A DNA stretch of 33,829 nt from an uncultured Lachnospiraceae bacterium. GTDB taxonomy: Bacteria > Bacillota > Clostridia > Lachnospirales > Lachnospiraceae. Below, in pieces: positions 16,721 through 33,734 of the stretch. Positions within the stretch are counted from its first letter, which is position 1. The number at the start of each line of letters is the position of its first letter. A program made the translations under genes and the position numbers. The stretch is taken from assembly GCA_947167135.1 (NCBI GenBank), contig CAMVGV010000028.1, positions 1 to 33,829 on the forward strand. The letters run 5' to 3'. The notes beneath the pieces were generated by a model. That model searched no databases. It was not told the DNA's origin and worked only from the letters and a program-made list of their open reading frames with translations.

Positions 16721-16723
16721 AGA

Positions 16724-16851: not shown

Positions 16852-16856
16852 GTAGA

Positions 16857-17570: not shown

Positions 17571-20386
17571 GCAGGATTTACTCTTTATATAAAAATTTCA
17601 GGGAAAAAAGATATGCGTATCTGCTTTCCTATATTCTTTTTTTCTGTTTTACCGCCATACTCATGTTCTGGTACTTTCCTGCTTTTCATAAAAGCTTTAT
17701 CTGGCAGCAGGACGGCTTAAAGCAGCACTATAACGGGCTTCTTTATTATGCGAAGTATTTACGCGGGATCTTATCCAACCTGTTTAAGGAGCACAGGCTT
17801 TCTTTTCCTATGTGGGATCATTCGGTGGGCTACGGATCGGATATTATAACAACCTTCCATTATTACGCCATAGGGGATCCGCTCACCCTTCTGTCGGTGT
17901 TTGTTCCCATAAGGTTTATGGAATTTTTTTATGCCTTCCTTTTTTTCCTCCGCTCCTTTATCGGCGGACTTGGATTTTCACTGATCTCCCTGAATAGAAG
18001 TAACAGCCGTTTTTATACTCTTATAGGTGCGATGATCTATTGCTTTTCCGCCTTTGCCCTGGTGCTTGGGCTGATGCACGGGATATTTATGATACCTGTA
18101 TGCTACTTCCCCTGGATGATCTATGGAGCGGACAGGATTTTTAATAATAAATCGCCTGTTATTTTCATATTGTCGGTAGCGGCAGCAGCAGCGGCAAACT
18201 TCTATTTCCTCTATATGGAGGTTCTGCTCACGGTCTTTTATATTCTTCATAAATTTATTTCTGAGGAAAGGGACAGATATGGAGTAAGGCAGAGTGTAAA
18301 AATTTACGCAGCCGATCTTTTAAAGCGCTTCGGGGAGTTTCTGCTGTACGGGATTAATGCTTTTTTCCTGTCGGCTGTGATACTTCTTCCTGTTTTAAGC
18401 GTCTTCTTTTCATCCGGGCGCTTTGCGGCGGAAAAGTACGTGCCTCTTTTCTATCCTCTGAAGCACTATCTGCAGCTTACGGCGAATTTTATGATAAGCA
18501 GGAGGGCCGGAAGCTGGACCCTTATGGGCTTCACTGCTGTGGGAGCATTGGCGGTGCTTATGTTATTTACCGACAGCCTTGAGGATAAGGAGATAAAAAG
18601 GCTGAGGCTCAGATTTTCGGTTCTGACGGTCTTTGCCATGATTCCCTTTTTCGGCTTTATGCTGAACGGCTTTGCCTATGTGGTAAACCGCTGGACCTTT
18701 GCCTGGGCTCTTTCAGCCGCTATGGTCACAGCCACCATGCTTAGCAGGCTGAACTGCTTTGATCCCGGGCGTAAGGGGAGACTTATCAAAGTATTGGCTG
18801 TTCTCACATATCTCAGCGCCGCTTTTTTCTTTGTGAGGAGTGAAGAATCCCTGCTTTCCATAGTACTTCTTCTGGTTCTGGTACTTATTCTCATGCGGGG
18901 GGAAATACCACGGGGATTAAAAAAGGGTTTGATCCTCATTGTAACATTTATGTCACTTTTCTTAAACGGCTGGTACTCCTATTCTACTGCTGAGGACGGA
19001 ATGCTGGACGAATATCTGGATTTTCACAGGGCGGATATGCTTCTTAATGATGACAGCTATACCGCAGCCTTAAATGATACCGGGGATACTTCCTTCTACA
19101 GAACGGAGCTGTATGACTGTGAGCGGACCCAGAACAGCTCCGTGCAGACCGGGTTAAAGGGCACACAGTATTATTTCTCGCTGACAAGCCCTTATATCTC
19201 TGACTTTATCAATGCCCTTTACCTCAACTGGCCAAAGGATTATGACTATGAGGGAGTGGAATCAAGAGAGGGTCTGGAAGCCCTGGCAGCGGTAAAGTAC
19301 TGCTTTGCCGGAGAGAACGCCGAAGGTGAGGTTCCGAAGGGCTTCAAAAAGATAGCTGAAAAGGAGAGCACCGCAGGGAAGGCTGAGCTTTACGAAAATG
19401 AAAATTCGCTGCCTCTCGGATATACCGTCGACAGTTTCATTTCAAGAAGCGCCTTTGACAGGGCGGAGGTGACGGGAAGGCAGAGCGCTCTTCTTACCGG
19501 AGCGGTTATTTCGGATGAAGATGCCGCTGCTCTTAGGGATGCCGGATATGAAGAGGCTGCTTTTACGGATGATTCCGTAAATGTGCTGAAAAGCATTGAA
19601 AAGAGCGGGGATATGGATCTCGGCCCAAATTCTTTTACAGTAAGGAGAAACGGGGGAGTAAGTATAAGTTTTGACGGAAGCGAAGATTCGGAGACCTACC
19701 TTTTCTTTACGAACCTCAGGTTTCAGGGCTACAAGGAAAGGGAGATGTACGATAAGGGAGCCTGGGCGGGACTCACGCCATACGAACAGGCGAAGGTCAG
19801 GGACAAAAATACAACGGACGGACGACCCGGCTCCTCCAGTATGATGATAAGCCTGGACGGACGTCAGCAGATAATGGAATTCTATAATAACAGGCAGGAC
19901 TATTACTGCGGAAGGCATGATTTCCTTATCAATCTCGGAAATACCGGAAAGGGGGAAAAGACCCTTGAGATCTCCTTCAGGGAGCCCGGGGTTTATACCT
20001 TTGATGCACTGGAGGTAAGGAGCCAGCCACTGTCATCGATAGAGGAGAAGCTGGAAGATCTCAGGGAGACAACGATGAGCGGAACCGGGATACTGAAGGA
20101 TGCGGTAAACGGAAGAATAAAAACGGACCGCAATAAGCTCTTAATGCTGTCAATTCCTTACAGTACGGGATGGAAAGCTTATATTGACGGCAGGGAGGAA
20201 AAGATCTTCCGGGCAGGGCTTATGTATATGGCAGTTCCAGTAACAAAAGGGGAACACAGTGTTTATCTTAAATACGAGACCCCTTACCTGAAGACCGGAG
20301 CCATACTTAGTATGATTGGAATAATCATGTTCTTTGTGATATCATTTTATGAAACAAACGTCAAAAGTCCAAATGGAGAGAAGTAG
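17567..20386 (+). CDS. YfhO-family membrane glycosyltransferase (second copy)
   Basis: 939 aa. A membrane segment (about 17-38), then Asp49 in WQQDGLKQHYNGLLYYAKYL, the YfhO signature loop, then about ten more segments to about 475, a large outside domain (480-900) and a last segment near the C terminus (TGAILSMIGIIMFFVISFY). It is predicted to move a sugar from undecaprenyl phosphate to a glycan or teichoic-type polymer on the outer face of the membrane. It starts within the HAD stop (ATGA) and ends 2 bp before the ThDP enzyme, so it is fully inside the CDP-sugar operon, unlike the copy at 9005. Confidence 0.88.
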   Translation: MSRIYSLYKNFREKRYAYLLSYILFFCFTAILMFWYFPAFHKSFIWQQDGLKQHYNGLLYYAKYLRGILSNLFKEHRLSFPMWDHSVGYGSDIITTFHYYAIGDPLTLLSVFVPIRFMEFFYAFLFFLRSFIGGLGFSLISLNRSNSRFYTLIGAMIYCFSAFALVLGLMHGIFMIPVCYFPWMIYGADRIFNNKSPVIFILSVAAAAAANFYFLYMEVLLTVFYILHKFISEERDRYGVRQSVKIYAADLLKRFGEFLLYGINAFFLSAVILLPVLSVFFSSGRFAAEKYVPLFYPLKHYLQLTANFMISRRAGSWTLMGFTAVGALAVLMLFTDSLEDKEIKRLRLRFSVLTVFAMIPFFGFMLNGFAYVVNRWTFAWALSAAMVTATMLSRLNCFDPGRKGRLIKVLAVLTYLSAAFFFVRSEESLLSIVLLLVLVLILMRGEIPRGLKKGLILIVTFMSLFLNGWYSYSTAEDGMLDEYLDFHRADMLLNDDSYTAALNDTGDTSFYRTELYDCERTQNSSVQTGLKGTQYYFSLTSPYISDFINALYLNWPKDYDYEGVESREGLEALAAVKYCFAGENAEGEVPKGFKKIAEKESTAGKAELYENENSLPLGYTVDSFISRSAFDRAEVTGRQSALLTGAVISDEDAAALRDAGYEEAAFTDDSVNVLKSIEKSGDMDLGPNSFTVRRNGGVSISFDGSEDSETYLFFTNLRFQGYKEREMYDKGAWAGLTPYEQAKVRDKNTTDGRPGSSSMMISLDGRQQIMEFYNNRQDYYCGRHDFLINLGNTGKGEKTLEISFREPGVYTFDALEVRSQPLSSIEEKLEDLRETTMSGTGILKDAVNGRIKTDRNKLLMLSIPYSTGWKAYIDGREEKIFRAGLMYMAVPVTKGEHSVYLKYETPYLKTGAILSMIGIIMFFVISFYETNVKSPNGEK

Positions 20387-20388
20387 TA

Positions 20389-22197
20389 ATGAAGATCAGG
20401 ATCGCCGATTATATTGCGGATTTTCTTGTAAATCATAAGGTGGATACAGTGTTTACCGTGACCGGCGGAGGTGCCATGCACTTAAATGATGCCTTCGGAC
20501 ATCACGAAAAGCTGCACTGCATCTACAATCATCACGAGCAGGGCTCGGCGATAGCAGCCGAGGGTTACACCAGACTGACCGGAAAGGTGGCTGCTGTCTG
20601 TGTGACAAGCGGTCCCGGCGGAACCAATGCTATAACAGGTGTTTTCGACTGCTATGTGGACTCTGTTCCTATGTTTGTGATCTCCGGGCAGGTTAAGAGA
20701 GAAACCACCGTGAGATATACGGGAACTGATCTTCGGCAGCTGGGGGATCAGGAGTGCGATATTGTGCGGGTTGTTGAGCCTATTACCAAATTTGCGGTTA
20801 TGATCACCAAACCCTATGAGATAAGGTATCAACTGGAGAAAGCCTGGTATCTTGCTACCCATGGCAGAAGAGGACCGGTATGGATAGACGTTCCACTGGA
20901 TATACAGGGAGCCGTCATAGAGACAGAGCAGCTTACCGGCTTCGAAAAGAAGAATACCGAGAAGAAGGAGCAGCCTTTGTTTGATAAATCAGAGGCAGAC
21001 AAGATACTTGAGAGGCTGGAGATATCGAAACGCCCGGTTATCCTCGCGGGAGAGGGAATAAGGCTTGGAGAAGCTTATAAGGAGTTTGTGGAGACCACCA
21101 GTGCTTTGAAGGTTCCGGTGGTTACCTGCTGGAATGCGCAGGATCTTCTGTGGGACAGTAATCCCTACTATGCGGGGATACCCGGAACTGTCGGGCAGAG
21201 AGCCGCCAATTTCATCGTACAGGCTGCGGATCTGCTGATCGTACTGGGCTGCAGGATGAATATCAGGAATATAAGCTATAATAAGCATCAATTTGCTGAG
21301 AAGGCTTATAAGATACAGGTCGATATCGACGAAAAAGAATTATGTAAACCAACTGTAAAAATAGACATGCCGGTTCACGCGGATGTCAAGGATGTCTGTG
21401 CCGAGCTTGCCCATGCTGCCGCAGACGAAGTGGGTGACCACAGAGAGTGGCTCAGGTGGTGCAGGGAGCTAAGAAAGCGTTTTCCAACAGTGCTTCCCGA
21501 GTATCTGGAGGTACAGAAGCCTATGAATCCCTACGCCTTTCTGGATATCGTCTCCGAAAACCTTGAAGGGGGAGACGCGGTGATCTGCGGAAACGGTGCG
21601 GCCTGTGTGCAGGTTTTCCAGACCCTGAAGCTGAAGAAGGGAATGAGGATATTTACGAATTCCGGTTCTGCGGAAATGGGCTTTGCCCTGCCTGCGGCGC
21701 TCGGGGCCGCAGCATCCGGCAGCGGGAGAAGGATAATCTGTATCGACGGGGACGGCTCCTTTATGATGAACCTGCAGGAGCTGCAGACCATAGTCCACAA
21801 CAAGCTGGATATAAAGATAATAATCCTTAATAATAACGGTTATCATTCCATACGGCAGACCCAGAGAAACCTCTTTAAGGGCAGGGCGCACGTTGGGATA
21901 GACAGGGAAAGCGGCGTATCCTTCCCTGAGCTTAAAAAGATAGCTTCGGCATTCGGTCTTTCCTATTTAAGGACGGATTCCTTAAAAAATGCAGACAGCC
22001 GTATTAAAAAGGCTTTTGAAACGGAAGGACCGGTGATATTGGAAGCCGTTCTGGATCATAAGCAGGATTTTGAGCCAAAGACCTCCTCAAGAGTACTTAA
22101 GGACGGCACTATTGTTTCAGCACCGCTTGATGATATGTTCCCCTTCCTTCCGAGAGAAGTGTATGAGGGAATAAGAGAGGAAGCGGCAGGTATTTGA
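20389..22197 (+). CDS. ThDP-dependent acetolactate synthase-like enzyme (YerE-like)
   Basis: 602 aa with the three domains of the acetohydroxyacid synthase family. The N-terminal ThDP domain has the activating Glu50 (HHEQGSAIAAEGY) and SGPGGTNAITG; a central domain covers about 195-340; the C-terminal ThDP-binding domain has GDG (454-456) and the closing NNNGY. With rfbFGH alongside, the best parallel is YerE, a flavin-bound enzyme that decarboxylates pyruvate and adds the two-carbon unit to the keto group of CDP-3,6-dideoxyhexulose in yersiniose synthesis. A plain catabolic acetolactate synthase is the alternative. GGAGAG lies about 10 bases upstream. Confidence 0.88.
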   Translation: MKIRIADYIADFLVNHKVDTVFTVTGGGAMHLNDAFGHHEKLHCIYNHHEQGSAIAAEGYTRLTGKVAAVCVTSGPGGTNAITGVFDCYVDSVPMFVISGQVKRETTVRYTGTDLRQLGDQECDIVRVVEPITKFAVMITKPYEIRYQLEKAWYLATHGRRGPVWIDVPLDIQGAVIETEQLTGFEKKNTEKKEQPLFDKSEADKILERLEISKRPVILAGEGIRLGEAYKEFVETTSALKVPVVTCWNAQDLLWDSNPYYAGIPGTVGQRAANFIVQAADLLIVLGCRMNIRNISYNKHQFAEKAYKIQVDIDEKELCKPTVKIDMPVHADVKDVCAELAHAAADEVGDHREWLRWCRELRKRFPTVLPEYLEVQKPMNPYAFLDIVSENLEGGDAVICGNGAACVQVFQTLKLKKGMRIFTNSGSAEMGFALPAALGAAASGSGRRIICIDGDGSFMMNLQELQTIVHNKLDIKIIILNNNGYHSIRQTQRNLFKGRAHVGIDRESGVSFPELKKIASAFGLSYLRTDSLKNADSRIKKAFETEGPVILEAVLDHKQDFEPKTSSRVLKDGTIVSAPLDDMFPFLPREVYEGIREEAAGI

Positions 22198-22247: not shown

Positions 22248-23249
22248 ATGACAGGTAAAACGAAAAAGACGATAAGCATAATGATTCCCTGCTACAATGA
22301 AGCGGAGAACGTGGAGCCGATAAGCGAACGGATCATTGAGATAATGACAGCAGAGCTCCCGGAATACGATTATGAGCTTCTTTTTATAGACAATTTTTCC
22401 ACAGACGGCACCAGGGAGAAGCTTACCGGGATCTGTGCCACAAATAAAAAGATCAAGGCGATCTTTAACGTGACGAATTTCGGACAGTTCAATTCACCCT
22501 TCTATGGGATGTGCCAGACCAGCGGGGACTGTACCATATCCATGGCATGCGACTTTCAGGATCCGCCGGAGCTCATACCTCAGTTTGTCCGGGAGTGGGA
22601 GAATGGATATAAGATCGTAAGCGCTATAAAGACCGGAAGCAAGGAAAACGGTTTCATCTACTTTTTACGGACACTTTACTATCGGATAATCAGAAATATG
22701 TCTGATGTGAAGATGATAGAAAACTTCACCGGTACGGGACTTTATGACCGCTCCTTTATAACTCTTCTGAAAAAACTGGACGATCCGGTGCCCTTTCTGC
22801 GCGGCATAGTTGCGGAGTACAATTTCAAGAGAAAAGAGATACCTTTTGTACAGCCTAAGAGAAGAGCCGGGAAGACCAGCAATAATTTCTACAAATTATA
22901 TGATGCGGCTATGCTCTCCATTACCTCCTATACCAAGGTTGGATTGAGGCTCGCCACGTTTTTCGGTTTCTTCGCGGGGCTCGTGAGCTTTTGCATAGCT
23001 ATATACTATACCGTGATGAAGCTGACCCACTGGTACAGCTTTTCTGCAGGCTATGCCCCCATGCTTATCGGAGTGTTTCTCTTAGGATCCCTTCAGCTTT
23101 TCTTTATCGGCTTTATGGGGGAGTATATTCTGAATATCAATACACGAATCATGCACCGTCCGCTTGTGGTGGAGGAGAAACGGCTGAATTTTGATGATGA
23201 TCCACCGGAAGAGGAAAAAACGGATAAGACAGAAAATGCAGATACATGA
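22248..23249 (+). CDS. CsbB/GtrB-like polyprenyl-phosphate glycosyltransferase
   Basis: 333 aa: a cytoplasmic GT-A domain of family GT2 (about 8-225; IMIPCYNEAENVEP, FIDNFSTDGT, catalytic-site DFQD at 102-105) followed by two membrane helices (about 235-258 and 270-297), the layout of CsbB, GtrB and dolichol-phosphate mannose synthases. It likely moves a sugar from a nucleotide donor to undecaprenyl phosphate, feeding a YfhO partner as CsbB does. Whether the donor is the CDP-sugar of this operon is inference. No strong ribosome binding site is seen; the leader is repeat DNA. It overlaps the GT8 gene by 4 bp. Confidence 0.9.
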   Translation: MTGKTKKTISIMIPCYNEAENVEPISERIIEIMTAELPEYDYELLFIDNFSTDGTREKLTGICATNKKIKAIFNVTNFGQFNSPFYGMCQTSGDCTISMACDFQDPPELIPQFVREWENGYKIVSAIKTGSKENGFIYFLRTLYYRIIRNMSDVKMIENFTGTGLYDRSFITLLKKLDDPVPFLRGIVAEYNFKRKEIPFVQPKRRAGKTSNNFYKLYDAAMLSITSYTKVGLRLATFFGFFAGLVSFCIAIYYTVMKLTHWYSFSAGYAPMLIGVFLLGSLQLFFIGFMGEYILNINTRIMHRPLVVEEKRLNFDDDPPEEEKTDKTENADT

Positions 23250-24262
23250 ACCTTAACGTCCTTTATCAGTTTAATGAGAAATACGCTCCCTATGCGGGAG
23301 CCAGCATAACAAGTCTTCTCGAGAACAATAAGCACATTGACAGGATCCATATCTTCATACTCGGAGAGGATCTGTCCCAGTTTTCCTGCCAGAGGCTGAG
23401 GAGCCTTACCGCCCAGTACGGAAGGCTTCTGAATTTTGTGAGGACCGAGAACCTTATCGCCCTCATGAAGGAGATGCATATGCCCTCCTACAGGGGGTCT
23501 TATGCCGCAAACATGCGGCTCTTTCTGTCCTTCATCATGGATGAGGATATTGACAGGCTTCTGTACCTGGATGCGGATACCATAGTTACCGGAAAGCTGG
23601 ATACGCTTATTGACCTTGATATGGGAGACCACCCTGTAGCCATGTGCCTGGACTCCCTGGTACGCAAGCATAAGAAACGCCTGAATTTTGATATGGCTGA
23701 CTTTTATTACAATTCGGGGGTTATCCTTTTTGACATGAAAAAATGGCGCAGGCTACGCTGTTCCGAGCGTATCGCGGATCACATAAGGAATGTAAGAGCC
23801 TGGTATCCCTCACCGGATCAGGATCTCCTGAATGTGGTATTAAAGGGTGAGATCATGAAGCTGAGCCCCAGATATAATATACAGCCGGTATATCTCGCCT
23901 TTTCTCCGAGGTCATACTTCAGAACCTTTGGCGGAAGGGGTTTTTATACACCTGAGGAGATGAGATCCGCTCTCACCGCTCCGGTCATATATCATTTCTT
24001 CCGCTTCGTGGGGGAATTTCCCTGGCATAAGAACAATGTCCATCCGGATAACGATCTTTTTGACAAATATATCGCTCTGTCACCCTGGAACGATTATGTG
24101 AAGCAGCCTGCGGATAACGGTATTGTCCTTAAGCTTGAAAAGATCCTCTATAAGAAGCTGCCCCGCTTTGTATTCATAAGGATATTCAGGGCCGCCTATG
24201 AGGATTTCATAAAGAAAGCGAACAAGGATTCACTCAAATTTAAGACAAACAGGCATATGTAA
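23246..24262 (+). CDS. Glycosyltransferase family 8
   Basis: 338-aa cytoplasmic retaining glycosyltransferase. NVLYQFNEKYAPYAGASITS is the GT8 opening, YLDADTIV carries the metal-binding DxD (Asp109, Asp111) and DFYYNSGVILFDMKKWR is the usual acceptor-side block, with SPDQDLLNVVL after it. GT8 enzymes of this kind add glucose or galactose in capsule or LPS-like glycans; donor and acceptor cannot be told. The gene starts inside the end of the preceding one (ATGA). Confidence 0.92.
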   Translation: MNLNVLYQFNEKYAPYAGASITSLLENNKHIDRIHIFILGEDLSQFSCQRLRSLTAQYGRLLNFVRTENLIALMKEMHMPSYRGSYAANMRLFLSFIMDEDIDRLLYLDADTIVTGKLDTLIDLDMGDHPVAMCLDSLVRKHKKRLNFDMADFYYNSGVILFDMKKWRRLRCSERIADHIRNVRAWYPSPDQDLLNVVLKGEIMKLSPRYNIQPVYLAFSPRSYFRTFGGRGFYTPEEMRSALTAPVIYHFFRFVGEFPWHKNNVHPDNDLFDKYIALSPWNDYVKQPADNGIVLKLEKILYKKLPRFVFIRIFRAAYEDFIKKANKDSLKFKTNRHM

Positions 24263-24272
24263 CGAAATTTCC

Positions 24273-25814
24273 ATGATCCAGATGACCATAACATCCCTTA
24301 GTTTCATTATTTTTATTGTTTTGGCAGTGGTTGTTTATTACCTGACTCCGAAAAGGTATATGTGGATGACACTGCTTTTTCTCAGCTTTGTTTTTTATTT
24401 TCTTGCTGCGGTTCCCTATACTCTTGTTTTTCTGCTGATAACAGCGCTTACGGCGCATTTTTCGTCGTACCTTATGGAAAGAACGGAAAAATACCGGAAT
24501 ACGGTGGCTTTCGCGGCAATAGCGGTCAATATCCTGCTTTGGTTTTTATTTAAGGGAAGCACATACTGGATCGGCCTGTCCGTGGCTCTTCACTCGGTTT
24601 TTCCGGCGGTGCCTGTTCTAAATAAGATCCCGTTCCCGGCGGCCTTTGGTATGAGTTATTATACCTTTCAGTCGGTAAGCTACATAATCGACTGTCTGTG
24701 GAAAACGTCAAAACGTGAAAAAAATTTCTTCAGACTCCTGCTTTTTCTCATGTTTTTCCCGCAGCTCACCACAGGTCCCTTCAGCCGGTACAATGCGCTT
24801 CAATCTGTCTATGAGGGGAGAAGCTTCGATATAGACAGGATATGCCGCGGGGCGCAGAGAATATTGTGGGGCTTCTTTAAGAAGCTTGTCCTTGCGGAGA
24901 GGATAGGGGCAATAGTGGATACGGTATACGGAGCTCCCGAAGCACATATCGGCTTATGGTATGTTCTCAGCTTTCTTCTATATCCGCTTCAGCTGTATGC
25001 CGATTTTTCCGGGAGCGTGGATATCGTTCTGGGAGTTGCGGAGCTTTTCGGAATAGAGCTTCCGGAAAACTTTAATAACCCTCTTTTTGCCGAGACTTCA
25101 CAGGAGTTCTGGCAGAGATGGCATATGTCCCTCGGAAGCTGGGTAAAGGACTATATAATGTATCCGGTTCTTAAAAGCAAACCGGTTCTTGAAGTGGGGA
25201 ACAGGATAAAGGCAAAGCATGGAAAAAAGGCCTCCAAGCTTGTAACGCTCGGTATAGGTATGTTCTGTACCTGGATGTTTATCGGAATATGGCATGGGGG
25301 ATATAGATACATCCTTGGATGCGGGATCTATTATTGGGCAGTTATGCTTTCCTATGAGATCCTCTCTCCGTATCTTTCCGGGATAAATAAAGCACTTGGC
25401 ATAAACGTGGCGTCCTTCAGCTATCATCTTATGAGGAAGCTTAGGACTTATCTGATCCTTTGTATATCGATGGTTTTTTTCAGGTCAGATGGCATAATGA
25501 ACGCATTCCGTATGCTTAAAGCCATAATACTGTCCTTTACACCCGGTTTTTTCAATCCCTGGATCTTTATTAACGGTGCACTTGCCGATACGGGTCTTTC
25601 CGGAACGGATACAGCTGTTATTATAATATCCCTGCTTCTAATGCTGCTGGCAGCTCTTATGAGGGAAAAAAAGGGACATGCCAGGGATTGGATCGCAGAG
25701 CAGGGAATAGTTTTCAGATGGAGCGCGTGGCTTGTCCTTTTCACCTTAGTAATGATCTTCGGAATGTACGGTCCGGGATATCATGCTGCGGATTTCATAT
25801 ATCAGGGGTTTTAG
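24273..25814 (+). CDS. MBOAT-family O-acyltransferase (DltB/AlgI-like)
   Basis: 513-aa polytopic membrane protein with about eleven segments. The MBOAT core is clear: QEFWQRWHMSLGSWVKDYIM, then the invariant His341 in GIWHGG. Such proteins pass an acyl group across the membrane to a surface glycan or teichoic acid. The donor in DltB is a carrier-protein thioester. An ACP gene lies 5 kb downstream in the same run of genes, and an SGNH-like partner begins at the next base after this stop, as in Dlt and alginate systems. The ribosome binding site is poor and the start could also be the ATG at 24282. Confidence 0.93.
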   Translation: MIQMTITSLSFIIFIVLAVVVYYLTPKRYMWMTLLFLSFVFYFLAAVPYTLVFLLITALTAHFSSYLMERTEKYRNTVAFAAIAVNILLWFLFKGSTYWIGLSVALHSVFPAVPVLNKIPFPAAFGMSYYTFQSVSYIIDCLWKTSKREKNFFRLLLFLMFFPQLTTGPFSRYNALQSVYEGRSFDIDRICRGAQRILWGFFKKLVLAERIGAIVDTVYGAPEAHIGLWYVLSFLLYPLQLYADFSGSVDIVLGVAELFGIELPENFNNPLFAETSQEFWQRWHMSLGSWVKDYIMYPVLKSKPVLEVGNRIKAKHGKKASKLVTLGIGMFCTWMFIGIWHGGYRYILGCGIYYWAVMLSYEILSPYLSGINKALGINVASFSYHLMRKLRTYLILCISMVFFRSDGIMNAFRMLKAIILSFTPGFFNPWIFINGALADTGLSGTDTAVIIISLLLMLLAALMREKKGHARDWIAEQGIVFRWSAWLVLFTLVMIFGMYGPGYHAADFIYQGF

Positions 25815-27104
25815 ATGAAAATAAGAAAGCTTTTTAAGACGGTTATATTCCTGTGTCTTATTGTAATGATAATGATGGGATTATCCGGACTTTTTGTTGA
25901 CAAGACAAGCAGATATTATAAGTCTGAATTTCTGAATGCAAGGACGGATTTTGATGCGCTTTTTTTTGGCGCCAGCAGAATGCATGAAGCGGTGGATCCT
26001 ATGTATCTCTGGGATAAATACGGGATATCCTCGTATAATCTGGCTTCGGCGGGGGAATCTGTCCAGATGTCCTATTATGTCCTTAAGGAAGCATTGGACC
26101 ACTGTTCTCCGAAGGTTGTATTTATTGATGCGGCAAAGATATCGGATGAATCTGACAAGATCAATTCCGGCTACGGTTTTGTGCATGAATCCATTGATGC
26201 ACTTCCTTTGAACAGAAACAAGCTGGAGGCTGTAAATTATGCCGGACGTTTTTTTGAAGGAGGGAGACTGGGCTTCATTTCAATGCTGTATGCGTATCAT
26301 GGCAGATATGATGACCTGAAGGAAGAGGACTTTAAGAGAGAGGTCAATTATGATAAGGGAGCTTATATCATGACGTCCGTATATAAAAGGGAAAAGCCTG
26401 TCCGGCAGACCGATGAGGTAAAGGAGCTGAAGGGCGGAGACGGAGTAAGCCATTATAAGCGTATTCTGGAGCTGTGCAGAGAAAAGGGCGTCCGCTGTGT
26501 GCTTACCGATATTCCGGTACATGCCAAAATATTCACCCCCGGCAGACAGAAGCATCTGAATGCGCTTATCAAGCTTACAAAGGAAAACGGTGGAGATGTG
26601 ATATCCTTTAATGATATTCTGGATGAAATAAAGCTTGACTATGACTATGATTTCGGAGATGCCGGACACCTGAATTTTATGGGAGCCGGGAAGATCTGCG
26701 ATTACCTTGCGGGATATATGCAGGATGATATCGGAATAGAAGATCACAGGAATGATCCCCTGTACAGCATTCCCTGGGAAGAAGACAAAAAGAAGTGGAA
26801 GGAACAGAGAACCGGGATGCTAGATGAAAAGGAGGACGCGGTTGCCTATATTTTCGGTGCGGTCGATGAGGGAAGAGAGATAAAAATGTACGTATATGAA
26901 CCGGATAAGGTCCGTAATCAGTACGGAATGGATTTTTGTCTTAATAGAACCGGAATTGAGCCCGAGCCGGTGGATGAGGATGAGATCGGCGGATACGATA
27001 TGATGATAGAGGTGCTGAATAAGGAAAACGGGGAAAGGATAGCACAGAAATCCTTTTTCTATAATCAGAGCAGCGGAATGTTTACAACAAAAGAGGAGGA
27101 ATAG
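25815..27104 (+). CDS. Membrane-anchored SGNH-like protein, MBOAT partner
   Basis: 429 aa. One N-terminal membrane helix (about 7-28) places the rest outside. The SGNH-type nucleophile Ser54 is in LFFGASRMHEAV, an ASAGES block follows (77-82), and the Asp-x-x-His pair is in GDAGHLNF (Asp282, His285), as in DltD and AlgX-like proteins. It follows the MBOAT gene with no gap. The expected role is final transfer of the acyl group to the polymer, or editing of it. The C-terminal 110 residues are highly charged and not recognised. Confidence 0.82.
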   Translation: MKIRKLFKTVIFLCLIVMIMMGLSGLFVDKTSRYYKSEFLNARTDFDALFFGASRMHEAVDPMYLWDKYGISSYNLASAGESVQMSYYVLKEALDHCSPKVVFIDAAKISDESDKINSGYGFVHESIDALPLNRNKLEAVNYAGRFFEGGRLGFISMLYAYHGRYDDLKEEDFKREVNYDKGAYIMTSVYKREKPVRQTDEVKELKGGDGVSHYKRILELCREKGVRCVLTDIPVHAKIFTPGRQKHLNALIKLTKENGGDVISFNDILDEIKLDYDYDFGDAGHLNFMGAGKICDYLAGYMQDDIGIEDHRNDPLYSIPWEEDKKKWKEQRTGMLDEKEDAVAYIFGAVDEGREIKMYVYEPDKVRNQYGMDFCLNRTGIEPEPVDEDEIGGYDMMIEVLNKENGERIAQKSFFYNQSSGMFTTKEEE

Positions 27105-27106
27105 GC

Positions 27107-28894
27107 TTGAGGGAACTGGAATATCCTTTTGACGGAGACTATATCATAATGAAAAAGAAGGCCTTAAGGAGAGAGCTTCTGAAGAAGGAAAAGCTTCTTC
27201 CTTTAAGGATTGCGGTTCTCGGAGGATATACCACTGATGATATCGTTAAGGTACTTGAGCTCTTTTTATTGAATTCCGGAATAAAGCCGACTTTCTATGA
27301 GTCCGAGTATAACAGGTATTATGAGGATGCGATGTTTGAGAATGGTGAGCTGGAGGCTTTCAAGCCGGAGATCATTTTCATATGTACATCCGTAAGGAAT
27401 ATCACGGATTTTCCGGACATCAATGACAGTGCCGAAACCGTGGAAAATAAATTTAAGACGGAGTGCGAACGTCTGGAAGCTATGTGGCAAAGGCTTGACA
27501 GAGTCTACGGATGTCCGATAATACAGAATAATTACGAATACCCCTCAGAGCGCCTCCTCGGGAACAGGGATTTCTGGGATATACACGGAGCGGTAAACTT
27601 TACGCTGAGACTGAATGCCTTTATAGGTGAATATGCTTCATCACACGGGAAATTCTATGTTCATGATGTAAATTATCTGTCTTCTCTGTACGGGCTTGAA
27701 AAATGGTCGGATCCGTTCTACTGGCATATGTATAAATATGCGGTTTCCGTTCCGGCGATACCCCGTTTTGCCTTTAATCTGTCAAATATCATCAAGTCAC
27801 TTATGGGGAAAAACAGGAAGGTATTGATGCTGGATCTGGATAATACCCTCTGGGGAGGGGTAATAGGTGATGACGGAGAAGATAATATCGAGATAGGTCA
27901 GGAAACATCACTTGGACAGACCTACAGTGAATTCCAGAAATATATTAAATCCCTTTCATCCCTTGGAATACTTCTTGCGATCAATTCTAAAAACGATGAG
28001 GAGACTGCACTTAAGGGTCTTAGGCGCCCGGACACCGTTTTGTCTCCGGAGGATTTTGCGGTAAAAAGGATAAACTGGGAGCCAAAGAGCGAGAACCTTA
28101 TAAGTGCCGCAGAGGAGCTGTCTCTCCTTCCCGAAAGCTTTGTTTTTGTTGACGATAATCCGGCTGAAAGGGAGATAGTCAGGGCAAACAATAAAGGGAC
28201 TGCGGTTCCGGAGATCGGGGACAGGCCGGAATATTATAAGGATATAATCGACAGATCCGGATTTTTTGAGATTACCGAACTGTCGGAGGACGATCTGAAG
28301 AGAAAATCCATGTATAAGGCAAATGCCGAGCGCAGAGAAAGCAGGACACAGTTTACCGATTACGGCGAATACCTGAGGTCACTGGATATGAAGGGTGAGA
28401 TAGGAGACTTTATTCCCGCCTATATGTCCAGGATCGCGCAGCTTACCAATAAAAGCAACCAGTTCAATCTGACCACGAAAAGATATACACAAAATGAGAT
28501 AGAGGAAGCGGAAAGGGAGGATGATACCATTACAATATACGGGAAGCTCAGTGACCGCTTCGGTGATAACGGTGTTGTAAGCGTCGTGATCGGAAGGATC
28601 AGGGATCAGGAGTGCCATATTGAGCTCTGGATCATGAGCTGCAGGGTACTGAAAAGGGATATGGAATTTGCAATGATGGACGAGCTTGTGAAGAAGTGTA
28701 CTGAAAGGAAGGTAAGTACAATATTCGGATATTATTATCCTACCGCAAAAAACGCTATGGTAAAGGAATTCTACGCGCTGCAGGGCTTCGAAAAGATATC
28801 TGAGGATGAGGACGGAAATACGGTATGGCGTTTTGACATAAAAGAGGACTATGCAAAAAAGAACAGATATATAGATGTCTGCAGTGGTGTGTGA
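27107..28894 (+). CDS. FkbH-like HAD-IIIC enzyme
   Basis: 595 aa. An N-terminal region with a Rossmann/SGNH-like look (about 30-220) precedes the HAD subfamily IIIC core: VLMLDLDNTLWGGVIGDDG with Asp243 and Asp245, then INSKN and FVDDNPAERE. A C-terminal GNAT-like part (about 420-585) completes the full FkbH length. FkbH proteins load a glyceryl unit from 1,3-bisphosphoglycerate on an acyl carrier protein with loss of phosphate, and this operon has an ACP. The start codon is TTG, strongly supported by GAGGAGGA six bases upstream. No adenylating or ketosynthase enzyme is seen in the window, so this is the best candidate for acyl supply. Confidence 0.92.
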   Translation: MRELEYPFDGDYIIMKKKALRRELLKKEKLLPLRIAVLGGYTTDDIVKVLELFLLNSGIKPTFYESEYNRYYEDAMFENGELEAFKPEIIFICTSVRNITDFPDINDSAETVENKFKTECERLEAMWQRLDRVYGCPIIQNNYEYPSERLLGNRDFWDIHGAVNFTLRLNAFIGEYASSHGKFYVHDVNYLSSLYGLEKWSDPFYWHMYKYAVSVPAIPRFAFNLSNIIKSLMGKNRKVLMLDLDNTLWGGVIGDDGEDNIEIGQETSLGQTYSEFQKYIKSLSSLGILLAINSKNDEETALKGLRRPDTVLSPEDFAVKRINWEPKSENLISAAEELSLLPESFVFVDDNPAEREIVRANNKGTAVPEIGDRPEYYKDIIDRSGFFEITELSEDDLKRKSMYKANAERRESRTQFTDYGEYLRSLDMKGEIGDFIPAYMSRIAQLTNKSNQFNLTTKRYTQNEIEEAEREDDTITIYGKLSDRFGDNGVVSVVIGRIRDQECHIELWIMSCRVLKRDMEFAMMDELVKKCTERKVSTIFGYYYPTAKNAMVKEFYALQGFEKISEDEDGNTVWRFDIKEDYAKKNRYIDVCSGV

Positions 28895-28895
28895 T

Positions 28896-29834
28896 ATGAC
28901 TGGGAACGGATCTGCAAGAAAGAATAAAAGGACAGAGGAATTTCTCGGACTGGTATTTGCTTCAAACCCAAGACAGAAGGAAAGCATTCTCTATACTATG
29001 GATAAGTACTATACGGAGGATGATTATTCTAAGCTGGAGGATATTCTTATGTTTTACGCCAGGAGCATGAGTATAACGGAAATAGCAGATGCGTACAGGC
29101 TTCTGGTAGAAGATACGATAAAGGAGACCATGTATTTCCTGGAGCATGGCCGTTACAGGTATTCGAGCTTTGAAGAAACCGAGAGACTGGTGTACAGCAG
29201 AAAGGAATATATGTCAAAGTATATGGTGGGTCTTTCTGTTTCGGGGTATCTGTGGTCAAATCACATAAAGATGTTTCACTGGTTCCGGGATATTATGAAG
29301 GGAATGGAAGGAAGGCGCTATCTTGAGATCGGACCCGGCCACGGCAGGTATTTCTGTGAGTCGGTAATGATAAACGGTTTTTCTGAATACGATGCGATCG
29401 ATGTATCGGAGACATCCGTTGATCAGACAAATGCTTATCTGAAGGAGCATCTTGATAAGGATCAAATGGGGAAGTGTAGGGTATTTCGGAAAAATGCCTA
29501 CGATCATAAGCCTGCGGAAAAGTACGATTTTGTTGTTATTGCCGAGGTGCTGGAGCACCTTGAGGATCCTTTGGGGATGCTTTCTCACGTTAACAGCATA
29601 AGCTCCGATCAGGCTTATCTCTATGTCACCGTTCCTGTAAATGCTCCGGAGATAGATCATATTTATCTCTTTAACAGCATAGAAGAGGTCGAGGAGCTTA
29701 TTAAGGCCGCGGGATATGAGATCAAAGACAGATTATATGCGGCAGCGGGAGATATGAAGCTGGAAAAGGCGGTTAAGAAAAAGAATTCCATTATTGTCGG
29801 ACTGCTGGCCGGAAAGGTGCGGGGAATGGGATGA
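28896..29834 (+). CDS. Class I SAM-dependent methyltransferase
   Basis: 312 aa. After a helical N-terminal extension of about 135 residues comes the Rossmann methyltransferase core: motif I RRYLEIGPGHGRYF (around Glu144-Gly148), DAIDVSETSVDQTN, and KYDFVVIAEVLEHLEDP, the motif common in Methyltransf_11/23 enzymes. Position between FkbH and MaoC genes suggests O-methylation of the ACP-bound acyl unit, as in methoxymalonyl-ACP pathways, but sugar methylation is equally possible. The start is uncertain: 28896 lies 1 bp after the previous stop, while 28875 would overlap it by 20 bp. Confidence 0.85.
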   Translation: MTGNGSARKNKRTEEFLGLVFASNPRQKESILYTMDKYYTEDDYSKLEDILMFYARSMSITEIADAYRLLVEDTIKETMYFLEHGRYRYSSFEETERLVYSRKEYMSKYMVGLSVSGYLWSNHIKMFHWFRDIMKGMEGRRYLEIGPGHGRYFCESVMINGFSEYDAIDVSETSVDQTNAYLKEHLDKDQMGKCRVFRKNAYDHKPAEKYDFVVIAEVLEHLEDPLGMLSHVNSISSDQAYLYVTVPVNAPEIDHIYLFNSIEEVEELIKAAGYEIKDRLYAAAGDMKLEKAVKKKNSIIVGLLAGKVRGMG

Positions 29835-30247
29835 ATCACTATGGCTACAGGGATCTGAGACCCGGTATGAAGGCGAGCTTTGACGTGGTTCTGGACGAAG
29901 AAAAGCTTGATATGTTCAGAACAATAACAGGAGATATCAATCCTCTTCATAATGACAGGAGCTATGCAGAGTCAAAGGGATACCGCGAAAGAGTGGTATT
30001 TGGCATGCTAAGTGCATCCTTAATGTCGACCCTGGCGGGAGTGTATCTTCCCGGGGAAAAAAGCCTCATCCAGTCCGTGGAAAGCAAATTCATAAAGCCG
30101 GTGATCCTTAATGATGTCATCACGGTCACCGGAGAGATCACGGATATGAATGATTCGGTGCAAAGAATCGAGCTGAAGGTAACAATGACGAATGACAGGG
30201 GAGAGAAGGTATTAAAAGGAAAGATGCAGGTATTGGTAAATGGATGA
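29831..30247 (+). CDS. MaoC-like (R)-specific hydratase
   Basis: 138-aa hotdog-fold protein. The hydratase motif TGDINPLHND (Asp35, His40 as the catalytic pair) and RVVFGMLSASLMS are intact, as in PhaJ and MaoC enzymes that add or remove water on enoyl-thioesters. It is coupled to the methyltransferase by ATGA and overlaps the SDR by 8 bp. With the SDR and ACP it could form a small reductive module on a carrier-bound acyl chain; no condensing enzyme is present. Confidence 0.9.
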   Translation: MNHYGYRDLRPGMKASFDVVLDEEKLDMFRTITGDINPLHNDRSYAESKGYRERVVFGMLSASLMSTLAGVYLPGEKSLIQSVESKFIKPVILNDVITVTGEITDMNDSVQRIELKVTMTNDRGEKVLKGKMQVLVNG

Positions 30248-30977
30248 GAGATGTATTTTTGTGACGGGAGCGTCGTCCGATATAGGGGTGGAGCTTATTA
30301 ATTCCATCGGTGACAATTATTCTTTGATCTATGCCCATTACAGAAATGATAATGAGAGCTTCTCTGCACTGAAGGAGAGCTTCGGTGAGCGGCTTTTCCC
30401 TCTTAAGGGCGACTTTCTTAACAGGGAAGATCAAAGGCATCTACTTGATATTATCAAAGAAAGAGGGGTCTTCCCCGATCATTTTGTTCATCTTCCTTCG
30501 GATAAAATGACGGGAAACAGATTTCATAAAAGAGACCCGGAGGATTTCCGGCGCAGCCTGGAGGTATCCTTTATGTCGGCAGCTACTCTCCTTAACGGGA
30601 TTATCGGTCCTATGGCAAAGAAAAGGTACGGCCGGATCATTTTTATGCTTTCCTCCTGTATTCTCGGGAGGGCGCCTGCCTACCAGTCACCCTATGTGAC
30701 TTCGAAGTATGCCCTTTTCGGTCTTATGAAGGCGCTTTCTGCAGAATATGCTTCAAAGGGGATCACCGTGAACGGGGTTTCACCGGATATGATGGATACC
30801 AAATTTCATAACGGTACTCTGAAGAAGGAAGTAGTGCTGAAGGAAAATGCGGAGATAAATCCGCTCGGAAGGAATATTGCCATAGGAGATGTTATCCCGG
30901 TTATCAGCTATCTTTTATCTGATGCCGCAGAGGCCGTGACGGGACAGAATATTGCGGTAACCGGTGGAGTGAGATAA
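30240..30977 (+). CDS. SDR-family reductase with atypical NNAG region
   Basis: 245-aa short-chain dehydrogenase. The cofactor loop is TGASSDIG (9-16) and the catalytic residues are Ser139, Tyr152 (YVTSK) and Lys156; the end is GQNIAVTGGV. The NNAG that normally follows strand 4 is replaced by HLPSDK (84-89), and the protein is clearly diverged from the FabG-like enzyme at 8266. It is encoded in overlap with the MaoC gene and just before the ACP, so an ACP-linked keto or hydroxyacyl substrate is likely. Confidence 0.88.
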   Translation: MDERCIFVTGASSDIGVELINSIGDNYSLIYAHYRNDNESFSALKESFGERLFPLKGDFLNREDQRHLLDIIKERGVFPDHFVHLPSDKMTGNRFHKRDPEDFRRSLEVSFMSAATLLNGIIGPMAKKRYGRIIFMLSSCILGRAPAYQSPYVTSKYALFGLMKALSAEYASKGITVNGVSPDMMDTKFHNGTLKKEVVLKENAEINPLGRNIAIGDVIPVISYLLSDAAEAVTGQNIAVTGGVR

Positions 30978-31064
30978 AATGATTAAATGATTTTTTGAGA
31001 AGGTGCGTATGGGGTCTGAATAGCTGCATTAAAGCATTTTTCCGGGAGAACGGAGGAAAAGGAT

Positions 31065-31313
31065 ATGACAAGAGAAGAAGTATTTGAGAGACTTACAGAG
31101 GTCTTCAGAAACGTTTTTGATGACGATACCATAGAGCTGTCGGAAACAACCACATCAAAGGATATTGAGGACTGGGATTCCTTCGAGCATATTAATCTAA
31201 TAGTTGCGGTGGAGAAGGAATTTTCGATCAAAGTCCCTATGGGAAAGGTCACCACAATGAAGGATGTGGGAGAAATGGTTGACATAATTCTTCAGGAATC
31301 CGGAGCTGTATGA
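31065..31313 (+). CDS. Acyl carrier protein
   Basis: 82-aa acidic four-helix carrier. The phosphopantetheine site is Ser39 in DWDSFEHINL, with the Asp-Ser pair intact, and the last helix follows VTTMKDVGEMV. The ribosome binding site is strong (CGGAGG, 9 bases before ATG), stronger than those of its neighbours, as expected for a carrier needed in excess. The 87-bp gap before it holds no clear promoter. In context it should carry the acyl unit loaded by FkbH and passed to the MBOAT protein, the role DltC plays for D-alanine. Confidence 0.93.
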   Translation: MTREEVFERLTEVFRNVFDDDTIELSETTTSKDIEDWDSFEHINLIVAVEKEFSIKVPMGKVTTMKDVGEMVDIILQESGAV

Positions 31314-31319
31314 GGCGGT

Positions 31320-32369
31320 ATGAAGATATCGGTAATAATTCCCGTATATAATACAAAGGCCGAATATTTAAGAGAGTGCCTGAACAGTCTTCTCTGCCGG
31401 CAGAAATTTAAGGACTATGAAGTCATTGCGGTAAATGACGGCTCTACAAACGGCTGTGAAAGTGTTATTGAGGAATTTGCCGGTCTTCATAACAAATTGG
31501 TTTACATAAAGCAGGAAAACTCCGGAACCAGCGTTGCGAGAAACACCGGTCTCTCCAGGGCAAGGGGGGACTATATCATGTTCGTGGATGGGGATGATTT
31601 TGTTTCCAATGACTGCCTTCATATCGTATATGAGGCGATGCAGAGGAGACGTACGGACATCCTTTTCTTCGGCTATGCCACCAGCTATACCAACAGGGAG
31701 ATCCGCCGGGTGCTTGATAAACCTGTCACAGATCTCTGGAGGAAGGATACTCTGGAGCTCTCGGTGCTTAAAGGGAATCCGGCTCTGGGAAGCGTGGAGG
31801 TGGGGGCACCCTGGGGAAAGCTTATCAAACACGATATAATCAGGGATAACGGCTTAAGGTATACGGAGGGGCTCATTAAGGGACAGGATACGGTTTTTAT
31901 GCTCTCTGTTTTTGAGCACTGCCGGTCATTTTCATATCTAAAGTATCTGGGGTACCATTACAGGATATCGGATGTTTCCGTAAGCCACCGCTACAACCAG
32001 GATATTGTTTCCATAATGGAAAAAACCCTTGGAGCTTATGGGGATTTTGTGGAAAAATATCATAAGCCGGAAGAGTTTGCGGAGGCTGTGAGGCAGAAGT
32101 ATTATAAGGTGATGCTGGGAGAATATCTGGAGTTATTTTTTCTGAATAAGAAGAATAAAGCGCCGAAGAGAGAAAAGGAAAACGATTTTCTAAAGATCCT
32201 TGTGAGCGAACCCTATTCAGACATTATCGAAAAGGTGGATCCCGGCAGCATGGGTCTTTATCAAAGGGTTCAGTTAAAGCTCCTGAAGAAGAGAAATATC
32301 TCTCTTCTCTTCGCCTTGAAGAGAGGGGAGTTCTTTTTAAGAGACCTGGTAGTGAGAAAGTATGTTTAA
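31320..32369 (+). CDS. Glycosyltransferase family 2
   Basis: 349 aa. The GT-A domain (about 1-220) starts KISVIIPVYNTKAEYLRECL, with VNDGSTNGC and the metal-binding FVDGDDF (Asp90-Asp93). No membrane helix is evident, so it acts in the cytoplasm on a lipid-linked intermediate. It starts 6 bp after the ACP stop with GAGGCGG just upstream. The sugar cannot be predicted. The C-terminal third is basic and helical, suiting membrane contact. Confidence 0.92.
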   Translation: MKISVIIPVYNTKAEYLRECLNSLLCRQKFKDYEVIAVNDGSTNGCESVIEEFAGLHNKLVYIKQENSGTSVARNTGLSRARGDYIMFVDGDDFVSNDCLHIVYEAMQRRRTDILFFGYATSYTNREIRRVLDKPVTDLWRKDTLELSVLKGNPALGSVEVGAPWGKLIKHDIIRDNGLRYTEGLIKGQDTVFMLSVFEHCRSFSYLKYLGYHYRISDVSVSHRYNQDIVSIMEKTLGAYGDFVEKYHKPEEFAEAVRQKYYKVMLGEYLELFFLNKKNKAPKREKENDFLKILVSEPYSDIIEKVDPGSMGLYQRVQLKLLKKRNISLLFALKRGEFFLRDLVVRKYV

Positions 32370-32420
32370 GCCTTCCGCCTTTGTGGCATATGAGGGTAGT
32401 CCACTATAAAGGAGATATTC

Positions 32421-33734
32421 ATGTCAATATATAACGATCTTATAAGCAAAAACACGAAGCTTGCCCTTGTGGGTTTAGGCTATGTTGGGATGCCGATCGC
32501 GGTGGCTTTTTCAGAGCAGGTGCCTACCATAGGCTTTGATATAAATAAGGAAAAGATAGAGAAGTACAAAGCCGGAAAGGATCCCACAAATGAAGTGGGG
32601 GATGAGGGCGTAAAAAACTGCAGTGTAGAGTTCACTTCGGATGAAACGCGGCTAAAGGATGCTTCTTTTGTAATAGTGGCGGTCCCGACACCGGTAAAGA
32701 ATGATCACACACCGGATCTCTCCCCTGTGGAGGGGGCAAGCCACGTGGTGGGACGGAACCTTAAAAAGGGGTCTGTCGTTGTTTATGAATCCACGGTTTA
32801 TCCCGGAGTCACCGAGGATATATGCGTTCCCATACTGGAAAAGGAATCAGGATTAAAATGCGGAAGCGATTTTAAGATCGGCTATTCTCCCGAAAGGATA
32901 AACCCGGGTGATAAGGTTCACAGGCTTGAAACCATCACTAAGATCGTGTCCGGTATGGATGAAGAAGCTCTCGAAGAAATCGCATCCGTATACAGTCTGG
33001 TAGTGAAGGCCGGAGTATACAGGGCGGAAAGCATAAAGGTTGCGGAGGCCGCAAAGGTCATAGAGAACAGCCAGAGGGATATAAACATCGCATTTATGAA
33101 TGAGCTTTCAATGATCTTTAATAAGATGGGGATCGATACCCTGTCGGTATTAAAGGCAGCGGGAACAAAATGGAATTTCCTTAATTTCCGCCCGGGGCTT
33201 GTGGGTGGACACTGTATAGGAATTGACCCCTATTACCTTACCTACAAGGCAGAGGAGCTGGGGTATCACAGCCGGATAATACTTTCAGGACGGCGTATAA
33301 ATGACGATATGGGTAAATACGTGGCTGAAAGCCTGGTTAAAAACCTGATAAAGGCAGATATCCCCGTAAGAGGAGCCCGGGTTGCGATCCTTGGCTTTAC
33401 CTTTAAGGAAAACTGCCCGGATACCAGAAATACCAAGGTCATAGACATTGTGAACGAACTTCGGGAATACGGCATCGAGCCGGTTATCACCGATCCGGAG
33501 GCAGACAGCGCTGAAGCGAAAGCCTTATACGGCATAGATTTTATCGATATAAAGGATATAAAAAACATGGATGCGGTGATCCTTGCCGTGGGGCATGACA
33601 GCTTCAAAAAACTAAAGGAAAACGATTTCTCAAAGCTGTACAGGGAAAACCGGATAAGGGTTCTTTCCGATGTAAAGGGGCTTCTTGACAGGAAGGAATT
33701 TGAGGAGAAGGGATATATTTACTGGAGACTGTGA
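32421..33734 (+). CDS. UDP-N-acetylhexosamine 6-dehydrogenase (TviB/WbpO-like)
   Basis: 437-aa NAD-dependent nucleotide-sugar dehydrogenase that oxidises C6 of a UDP-HexNAc to the uronic acid in two steps. [13 protein letters not shown] (18-30) binds [17 protein letters not shown] and [11 protein letters not shown] are family blocks, Cys265 in [12 protein letters not shown] is the catalytic thiol and [18 protein letters not shown] belongs to the UDP-binding domain. This block pattern fits the WbpO/TviB/CapL branch rather than UDP-glucose dehydrogenase. AAGGAG sits 8 bases before the ATG. An acidic aminosugar in the glycan is implied. Confidence 0.92.

Follow-up and report, generated by a model that had tools for sequence, protein, structure and literature searches.

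A proposed FkbH-fed, carrier-dependent MBOAT-SGNH module for glycan acylation in an uncultured Lachnospiraceae bacterium

The DNA examined here, termed the window, is the whole 33,829-nucleotide stretch of contig CAMVGV010000028.1 from an uncultured Lachnospiraceae bacterium (assembly GCA_947167135.1). Between positions 24273 and 31313 it contains seven closely packed + strand open reading frames (ORFs), which encode an MBOAT acyltransferase, an SGNH-like protein, an FkbH-like enzyme, a methyltransferase, a MaoC-type hydratase, a short-chain dehydrogenase/reductase (SDR) and an acyl carrier protein (ACP). The gene content suggests, with a probability of about 0.7, an ACP-fed envelope acylation system in which FkbH would load the carrier, the bound group would be tailored on it, the MBOAT would transfer the group and the SGNH-like protein would esterify a glycan with it. 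The intergenic gaps are, in order, 0, 2, -20, -4, -8 and 87 bases, and the features of the module are as follows.

24273-25814, + strand: MBOAT acyltransferase, 513 residues, matching PF03062 and the DltB model; member of the FkbH-linked clade
25122-25295, + strand: MBOAT His284 to His341 with a long basic segment, a candidate carrier-protein docking element
25794-25811, + strand: C-terminal FIYQGF of the MBOAT, putative acyl-shuttle motif with Tyr510, fitting the FxYxxF of DltX and PatA
25815-27104, + strand: membrane-anchored SGNH-like protein, 429 residues (Ser54, Asp282, His285), assigned from motif residues and conservation
27107-28894, + strand: FkbH-like HAD-IIIC enzyme, 595 residues, TTG start, the expected ACP loader (TIGR01686)
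27833-27859, + strand: HAD motif I of FkbH, DLDNTLWGG, assigned from residue conservation in homologues
28640-28642, + strand: FkbH Cys512 of the SCRV motif, a candidate acyl-carrying cysteine, assigned from conservation
28875-29834, + strand: S-adenosylmethionine methyltransferase (PF13489, 3.6e-15) with the motif EIGPGHG
29831-30247, + strand: MaoC-type hydratase/dehydratase (PF01575, 3.1e-17) with the catalytic motif DINPLHND
30240-30977, + strand: SDR reductase (PF13561, 1.1e-32) with TGASSDIG and Tyr152/Lys156
31065-31313, + strand: acyl carrier protein with Ser39 in WDSFEH; ACP models match below cut-off, solved relative 2LML

A first-pass annotation of this DNA had described seven consecutive genes here, including a full-length FkbH, an ACP with an intact DS motif and an SGNH-like protein with Ser54, Asp282 and His285. 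All of these assignments were borne out, with every gene on the + strand and the catalytic motifs intact. The same annotation had presented the set as a Dlt-like module in which FkbH replaces the adenylating enzyme, and had noted that DltA-like, ketosynthase and AMP ligase genes are lacking. Scans of 29 window ORFs, 28 of them against Pfam and ORF 20389-22197 against NCBIfam only, detected neither an AMP ligase nor a ketosynthase.

The association of FkbH with the MBOAT was analysed in two sets of loci. Of 403 FkbH relatives from a one-genome-per-species collection the best 80 were kept, giving with the window 81 loci, in which genes were counted if they shared the strand of FkbH and lay no more than 6 kb from it. 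Loci of both sets are designated by L-numbers; L001, which duplicates the window, and L002 are excluded from these counts. Selection of the second set was independent of likeness to the window, 298 same-family genomes being searched with the FkbH model. The window MBOAT was searched against the same 298 genomes, and 40 stretches with a window-like MBOAT and no nearby FkbH were added. The MBOAT tree has 157 rows, was built by a quick method with a midpoint root and leaves out MBOATs shorter than 430 residues and duplicate sequences. The window MBOAT lies within an 81-row clade (SH-aLRT 99) of which 68 rows have an adjoining same-strand FkbH, and a neighbouring 31-row clade (SH-aLRT 92) comprises MBOATs located beside AMP-forming ligases. 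With the ligase profile, an AMP-forming ligase is found on the same strand within 4.5 kb in 24 of the 31 ligase-clade rows, compared with 0/81 in the FkbH clade; the ligase signature used with the tree found 23/31. Over the tree the FkbH label changes 19 times; shuffled labels change 51.9 times on average, and 0/500 shuffles gave so low a value, a result that near-copies favour.

Among the 24 ligases, 22 were scanned (all except those of L176 and L186). Fourteen are of the amino-acid-adenylation/DltA type, none exceeding the DltA cut-offs, seven are nearest to acyl-CoA ligases (L175, L184, L167, L174, L192, L193 and L200) and one gave no match at threshold. The presence of acyl-CoA-ligase-like neighbours suggests that the substrates of the ligase clade may not be limited to amino acids. 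Two ACPs checked from this clade give sub-cut-off matches to the carrier models DltC and AmcB. The genome from which the window derives carries a second MBOAT on contig 1 (10383-13374), directly followed by an AMP-forming ligase (261 bits with the DltA subfamily model, cut-off 476). Both MBOAT types, ligase-fed and FkbH-fed, thus appear to coexist in this genome. At L185:3836-9626 an amino-acid-adenylating ligase, a pyridoxal-phosphate decarboxylase (lysA-like, 170 bits), a DltC-like ACP, an MBOAT and an SGNH protein lie together, and ORFs of similar size and like position occur at L172, L173, L178, L183, L186, L187 and L190, the decarboxylase being annotated in L185 only. Loci of the L185 type possibly encode a further, hitherto undescribed modification of glycans with an aminoacyl or amine-derived group.

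The same linkage is observed between genomes. FkbH is present in 20/20 genomes with the best window-MBOAT matches and in 1 of the next 18, among the matches listed; the comparison draws on the best 42 matches after the window's own, with the 301.5-bit line set after seeing where FkbH ends. The genome lists used here were transcribed by hand, as were the clade membership lists used for the segment comparison described below. Similarly, eight FkbH-clade MBOATs were chosen for having no nearby FkbH, some of them on short contigs, and seven of these are in genomes with FkbH elsewhere (7/8 against 6/28 ligase-clade genomes, Fisher p 0.0013). Chance clustering within polysaccharide loci was rejected as the whole explanation, since the linked MBOATs largely form one clade and track FkbH across genomes. 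Adjacency counts alone would be misleading, because some of the MBOATs at these loci are of the PLGG type (the 23 rows of clade X). PLGG-type MBOATs are here taken to be of the AlgI/PatA type.

The window MBOAT exceeds the cut-off of PF03062 (39 bits, cut-off 27) and matches the DltB model TIGR04091 at 129 bits, below the cut-off of 375, and it is thus not called DltB; the only solved relatives detectable by sequence are the DltB structures 6BUG and 8JEM. His284 and His341 are invariant in 51 homologues and align with the RWH and WHG motifs of DltB. The segment spanning both His motifs measures 63 residues in 73 of the 79 measurable FkbH-clade rows and in all 31 ligase-clade rows, against 46 residues in 23/23 PLGG-type rows, and its median net charge is +10, +9 and +4, respectively. 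In the portion of the DltB study available (PMC11035591), the carrier docks on a DltB helix within this inter-His region, and the long basic segment is by analogy a plausible carrier-docking element. Tyr510 and Phe513 of the C-terminal FIYQGF (residues 508-513) are also invariant in the 51 homologues, and the shuttle motif is present in 78/81 FkbH-clade rows. As far as the consulted sections of PMC12148441 describe these systems, the carrier DltC supplies D-alanine to DltB, which hands it to a tyrosine of DltX, while PatA has the FxYxxF on itself and uses acyl-CoA. The combination of a C-terminal FxYxxF on the MBOAT, borne by DltX in Dlt, with an ACP of its own makes the module a Dlt/PatA hybrid; by analogy with these two systems, the MBOAT is both carrier-fed and self-shuttling. 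The idea of a Dlt-like module with FkbH in place of the adenylating enzyme is therefore retained as to its feeding, on the strength of the clades, the genome co-occurrence and the shared long segment, and is amended as to its shuttle, which is fused to the MBOAT. That FkbH stands in for the adenylating enzyme is well supported by these sequence comparisons.

FkbH itself matches TIGR01686 with 276 bits (cut-off 147), and its N-terminal domain exceeds the cut-off of PF21211. Asp243, Asp245, Thr247, Trp249 and Gly251 are each conserved in 119/119 window-type homologues, and the two HAD aspartates, 243 and 245, also in 37/37 other FkbH homologues. Cys512 of the SCRV motif is present in 119/119 window-type sequences and in 36/37 of the others, the 37th having a gap, whereas Cys136 distinguishes the two groups (119/119 against 6/37). 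The ACP matches PF00550 with 19.7 bits, slightly below the cut-off of 20.8; its best NCBIfam matches are acyl carrier protein models, all below cut-off, and its solved relative 2LML scores 66.6 bits. In the SGNH-like protein, Ser54 is conserved in 36 of 37 aligned relatives (one gap), His285 in all 37, and position 282 holds Asp in 28 relatives and Asn in six. The protein itself has no Pfam or NCBIfam match at E<=0.01. Its relatives match, at E<=1, Lipase_GDSL_2 (9/37, best 2e-5), DUF1574 (11/37, best 9.6e-5) and DltD (2/37, best 0.018). Its profile retrieved no SGNH relative among solved structures, with three matches at E<=1; the best of these, FAM3B (E 0.13), is located at the C-terminal end and was not taken as meaningful.

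The core of the module recurs. Within the 81 loci an ACP is present in 72, an MBOAT in 68 and both in 65, so that a gene-neighbourhood check for MBOAT, FkbH and ACP, suggested by the first-pass annotation and run here at <=6 kb, finds the three together in 65/81. FkbH over cut-off occurs in 63/298 same-family genomes (the window's own included) compared with 10/249 phylum-wide. Of 73 in-family FkbH sites over cut-off, 71 were analysed (omitted were the window and a site in genome G503 whose FkbH is broken), 38 with window-type FkbH and 33 with other FkbH, in a neighbourhood of 4.5 kb radius. An MBOAT accompanies 24/38 window-type FkbH against 7/33 others, and a long-segment MBOAT 21/38 against 3/33; an ACP is found beside 34/38 and 24/33, respectively.

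Several observations weigh against the proposed system. The adjacency counts are raw values, uncorrected for random-region background. In the midpoint-rooted tree the FkbH and ligase clades and one extra row join at a support of 87 with their order left open. The 81-row clade does not contain every FkbH-linked MBOAT: of 87, 19 are placed elsewhere, 10 of them with the short segment, which shows that FkbH can adjoin an ordinary MBOAT. At L177:5042-7949 an FkbH-clade MBOAT and an FkbH-type ACP lie with a phosphotransacetylase in a genome without FkbH over cut-off, as if the ACP could be fed otherwise, by another acyl phosphate. At 14 of the 38 sites with window-type FkbH the 4.5-kb neighbourhood lacks an MBOAT; some of these sites are at contig ends, and at others FkbH has unrelated neighbours (phosphofructokinase at L135, Sir2 at L125, cytidylyltransferase at L130). 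By our own count, the DltC contact residue Glu40, as named in the part of the source at hand, corresponds to Asn44 in this ACP. Regarding the acyl group, a methyltransferase is found at only 5/81 loci, the substrates of MaoC and SDR are guesses, and the mutual exclusion of VOC and MaoC genes described below is not significant over independent tree pairs (0 same and a mean of 4.3 opposite of 9; median p 0.125). The lactyl route considered below follows reaction logic and a D-lactyl route reportedly proposed for bryostatin.

The ten short, CoA-type segments outside the main clade would also suit an arrangement of two unrelated activities, in which MBOAT and SGNH acetylate from acetyl-CoA and FkbH with the ACP serves another acceptor, for example in an amino-sugar amide. 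Nine of the 14 MBOAT-less sites were scanned and four of them bear an acyltransferase beside the FkbH set, a PglD-like hexapeptide enzyme at L132 and a GNAT at L133, L146 and L138; in cyanobacterial suomilide clusters, moreover, FkbH and MBOAT are assigned separate jobs in the text available. However, the window MBOAT clade is tied to FkbH across genomes, its long basic segment is common to the ligase-linked clade and not to the PLGG type (short in 23/23), and no GNAT or hexapeptide enzyme was matched by Pfam among the ten ORFs of 22248-32369. Such a division of labour is thus considered improbable. The four acyltransferase-bearing sites give the impression of an acyl-ACP that serves as a shared donor for exchangeable transferases. 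In L132:7331-11192, L146:7441-11207 and L133:8790-11889 an FkbH-ACP-MaoC(-SDR) series is followed by the PglD-like hexapeptide enzyme or a GNAT in place of the MBOAT, which suggests N-acylation of amino sugars by the same acyl-ACP.

For the ACP-fed acylation system, the following route is proposed. By its family, FkbH would take 1,3-bisphosphoglycerate, a glycolytic acyl phosphate, and load a D-glyceryl group onto the dedicated ACP; with such a donor an adenylating enzyme is not needed. MaoC could dehydrate glyceryl-ACP across C2-C3 to pyruvyl-ACP, which the SDR could reduce to lactyl-ACP, and the methyltransferase may O-methylate the bound group. Loss of the C3 hydroxyl through MaoC would also abolish the C2 centre. 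The acyl-ACP would then dock at the cytoplasmic face of the MBOAT and the group would cross the membrane to Tyr510 of FIYQGF, as in Dlt and PatA. Ser54 of the SGNH-like protein would accept it and esterify the glycan built by the surrounding cluster. Overall, a glyceryl-derived group would probably be made and delivered to a glycan, and the pairing of MaoC with SDR points to dehydration and re-reduction to a lactyl-type group rather than to plain glycerate.

The tailoring genes vary around this core. In the window the methyltransferase, MaoC and SDR ORFs overlap each other. The SDR occurs in 21/81 loci, each time with MaoC (21/21), and a transketolase pair in 13/81, again with MaoC in 13/13; an aldo-keto reductase (AKR) is found in 6/81, every one with transketolase. 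In contrast, a VOC protein (Glyoxalase_4 in the single member scanned) occurs in 23/81 loci and MaoC in none of these 23 (raw Fisher 1.5e-6, kinship ignored). Among close MBOAT and SGNH relatives, L003, L004 and L007 carry methyltransferase, MaoC and SDR, L005 and L008 MaoC and SDR, and L006 VOC together with a methyltransferase homologue on the opposite strand. The transketolase pair is split and lies between FkbH and MaoC-ACP-MBOAT in L012, L013, L015, L016, L024, L028 and L070, with an AKR in L016, L024, L028 and L070. VOC could invert C2 of glyceryl-ACP, and transketolase could add carbon to the keto group of pyruvyl-ACP. The same core with different tailoring genes indicates that the acyl group probably varies, being glyceryl, VOC-epimerised or modified by transketolase and AKR.

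A simpler chemistry, with a plain or O-methylated D-glyceryl group as in aeruginosins and the Campylobacter di-O-methylglycerate and with MaoC and SDR acting elsewhere or merely tuning, is in keeping with the minimal loci, 15/81 having ACP and MBOAT and none of MaoC, SDR, VOC, transketolase, AKR or methyltransferase. It is also in keeping with L082 (FkbH-methyltransferase-ACP-VOC-MBOAT, no MaoC) and with the O-methyltransferase, FkbH and peptidyl carrier protein proposed to yield methylglycerate in aeruginosins, according to the accessible text. The overlap of methyltransferase, MaoC and SDR in the window and the constant company of SDR and MaoC suit instead a two-step route on one substrate, and the simpler chemistry is regarded as rather unlikely, although less so than the two-activity arrangement. 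FkbH, ACP, oxidoreductase and methyltransferase genes also resemble the methoxymalonyl-ACP set in the excerpts consulted. Synthesis of an extender unit, methoxymalonyl-type or polyketide, for secondary metabolism is nevertheless very improbable, as the scanned ORFs include no ketosynthase, the neighbours are sugar-nucleotide enzymes and glycosyltransferases, and the module has MaoC and one SDR, not the two oxidising dehydrogenases of the methoxymalonyl pathway.

The ACP-fed acylation module can be compared with four known systems. With Dlt (DltA, DltB, DltC, DltX, DltD) it shares a dedicated carrier, a DltB-like MBOAT with two catalytic His, an SGNH-like partner and a probable extracellular polymer acceptor. 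It differs in having FkbH for the AMP-forming DltA, a shuttle tyrosine fused to the MBOAT in place of that on DltX, and the additional MaoC, SDR and methyltransferase. Like the PatA-PatB/AlgI-type systems it has an MBOAT with a C-terminal FxYxxF and, as a separate partner, an SGNH-like protein; those systems, however, are acyl-CoA users without a carrier protein in the portion seen of PMC12148441, whereas the module has an ACP. The FkbH pathways of tetronates, methoxymalonyl-ACP and aeruginosins similarly contain a full-length FkbH, a carrier protein and a methyltransferase. Glyceryl-ACP is used in tetronate pathways, and in aeruginosins FkbH is proposed to load glycerate, subsequently O-methylated, as stated in the extracts available. 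In contrast, no polyketide synthase or non-ribosomal peptide synthetase was seen with the module, and its acyl-ACP is expected to go to the MBOAT.

The nearest published precedent, judging from the accessible literature text, is the di-O-methylglycerate of the Campylobacter flagellin glycan. The available part of PMC7099621 places di-O-methylglyceric acid on the pseudaminic acid of C. jejuni 11168 flagellin; strain 12664, in which cj1302 is a pseudogene, is without it, as is strain 12661, noted to lack cj1301. Thus, an FkbH-domain gene (cj1302) lies in a glycan locus and a glycerate-derived group is found on a sugar; MBOAT-SGNH export is, however, not mentioned for this glycan in that text, and the role of cj1302 is correlative. 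Within the parts seen of the openly licensed literature, FkbH and MBOAT are paired only for cyanobacterial peptides, with separate jobs for each. No description of a system with this gene set was found in that literature on FkbH with MBOAT, polysaccharide or glycan, in agreement with the first-pass annotation, which knew of none. Judged by its gene set, the module adds a further form to the carrier-fed MBOAT-SGNH acylation systems already described.

Whether it represents a third, widespread type of bacterial envelope acylation is evenly balanced in our estimation. Such a type would combine Dlt-like carrier feeding with PatA-like self-shuttling, would be energised through FkbH by a glycolytic acyl phosphate rather than by acyl-CoA or by adenylation at the cost of ATP, and would diversify the glycan esters of gut and rumen Lachnospiraceae by swappable on-carrier tailoring (MaoC and SDR for lactyl groups, VOC for a C2 epimer, transketolase and AKR for branched acids). 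If this is true, the decoration of the cell surface in common gut and rumen bacteria would be coupled directly to an intermediate of glycolysis, and glycan esters of the glyceryl, lactyl, O-methyl and branched kinds may have been overlooked, perhaps through ester-removing alkaline work-up. The neighbouring clades of one enzyme, one located beside AMP-forming ligases and the other beside FkbH, would let the choice of donor by MBOATs be studied as a natural experiment. Testing is possible in carriers with strain names rather than metagenome-assembled genomes (MAGs), namely Kineothrix alysoides (L049), Lachnospiraceae AD3010 (L005) and GAM79 (L070).

Glycosyltransferase and nucleotide-sugar genes flank the module, which therefore sits within a surface-glycan cluster; its immediate neighbours, assigned from family matches, are given below.

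22248-24262, + strand: PgfS-like GT2 and GT8 glycosyltransferases, immediately upstream
31320-33734, + strand: GT2 glycosyltransferase and TviB-like nucleotide-sugar dehydrogenase, immediately downstream

The upstream sugar genes encode a glucose-1-phosphate cytidylyltransferase, a CDP-glucose 4,6-dehydratase, RfbH, an HMGL-like aldolase and a HAD protein, and other upstream genes encode an acetolactate-synthase-like thiamine diphosphate (ThDP) enzyme and two membrane proteins of the YfhO family, the second of which is also PgfM1-like. The sugar enzymes of window positions 11933-22197, including the ThDP enzyme, probably make a branched 3,6-dideoxy sugar, in a pathway that we take to be yersiniose-like. 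The closest relative found is L003, a goat-rumen Lachnospiraceae MAG whose FkbH is 98% identical, and the nearest relatives are likewise Lachnospiraceae. On contig 6 of the window's own genome, a second FkbH (26144-27799, 37% identical) has no MBOAT or ACP within the 20 kb examined; 12 kb from this FkbH, at 40253-40495, lies a stretch that resembles an ACP and contains a single in-frame TGA. Within the window, ORF 4462-5106 encodes a YjbR domain joined to the DNA-binding domain of a 6-O-methylguanine DNA methyltransferase.

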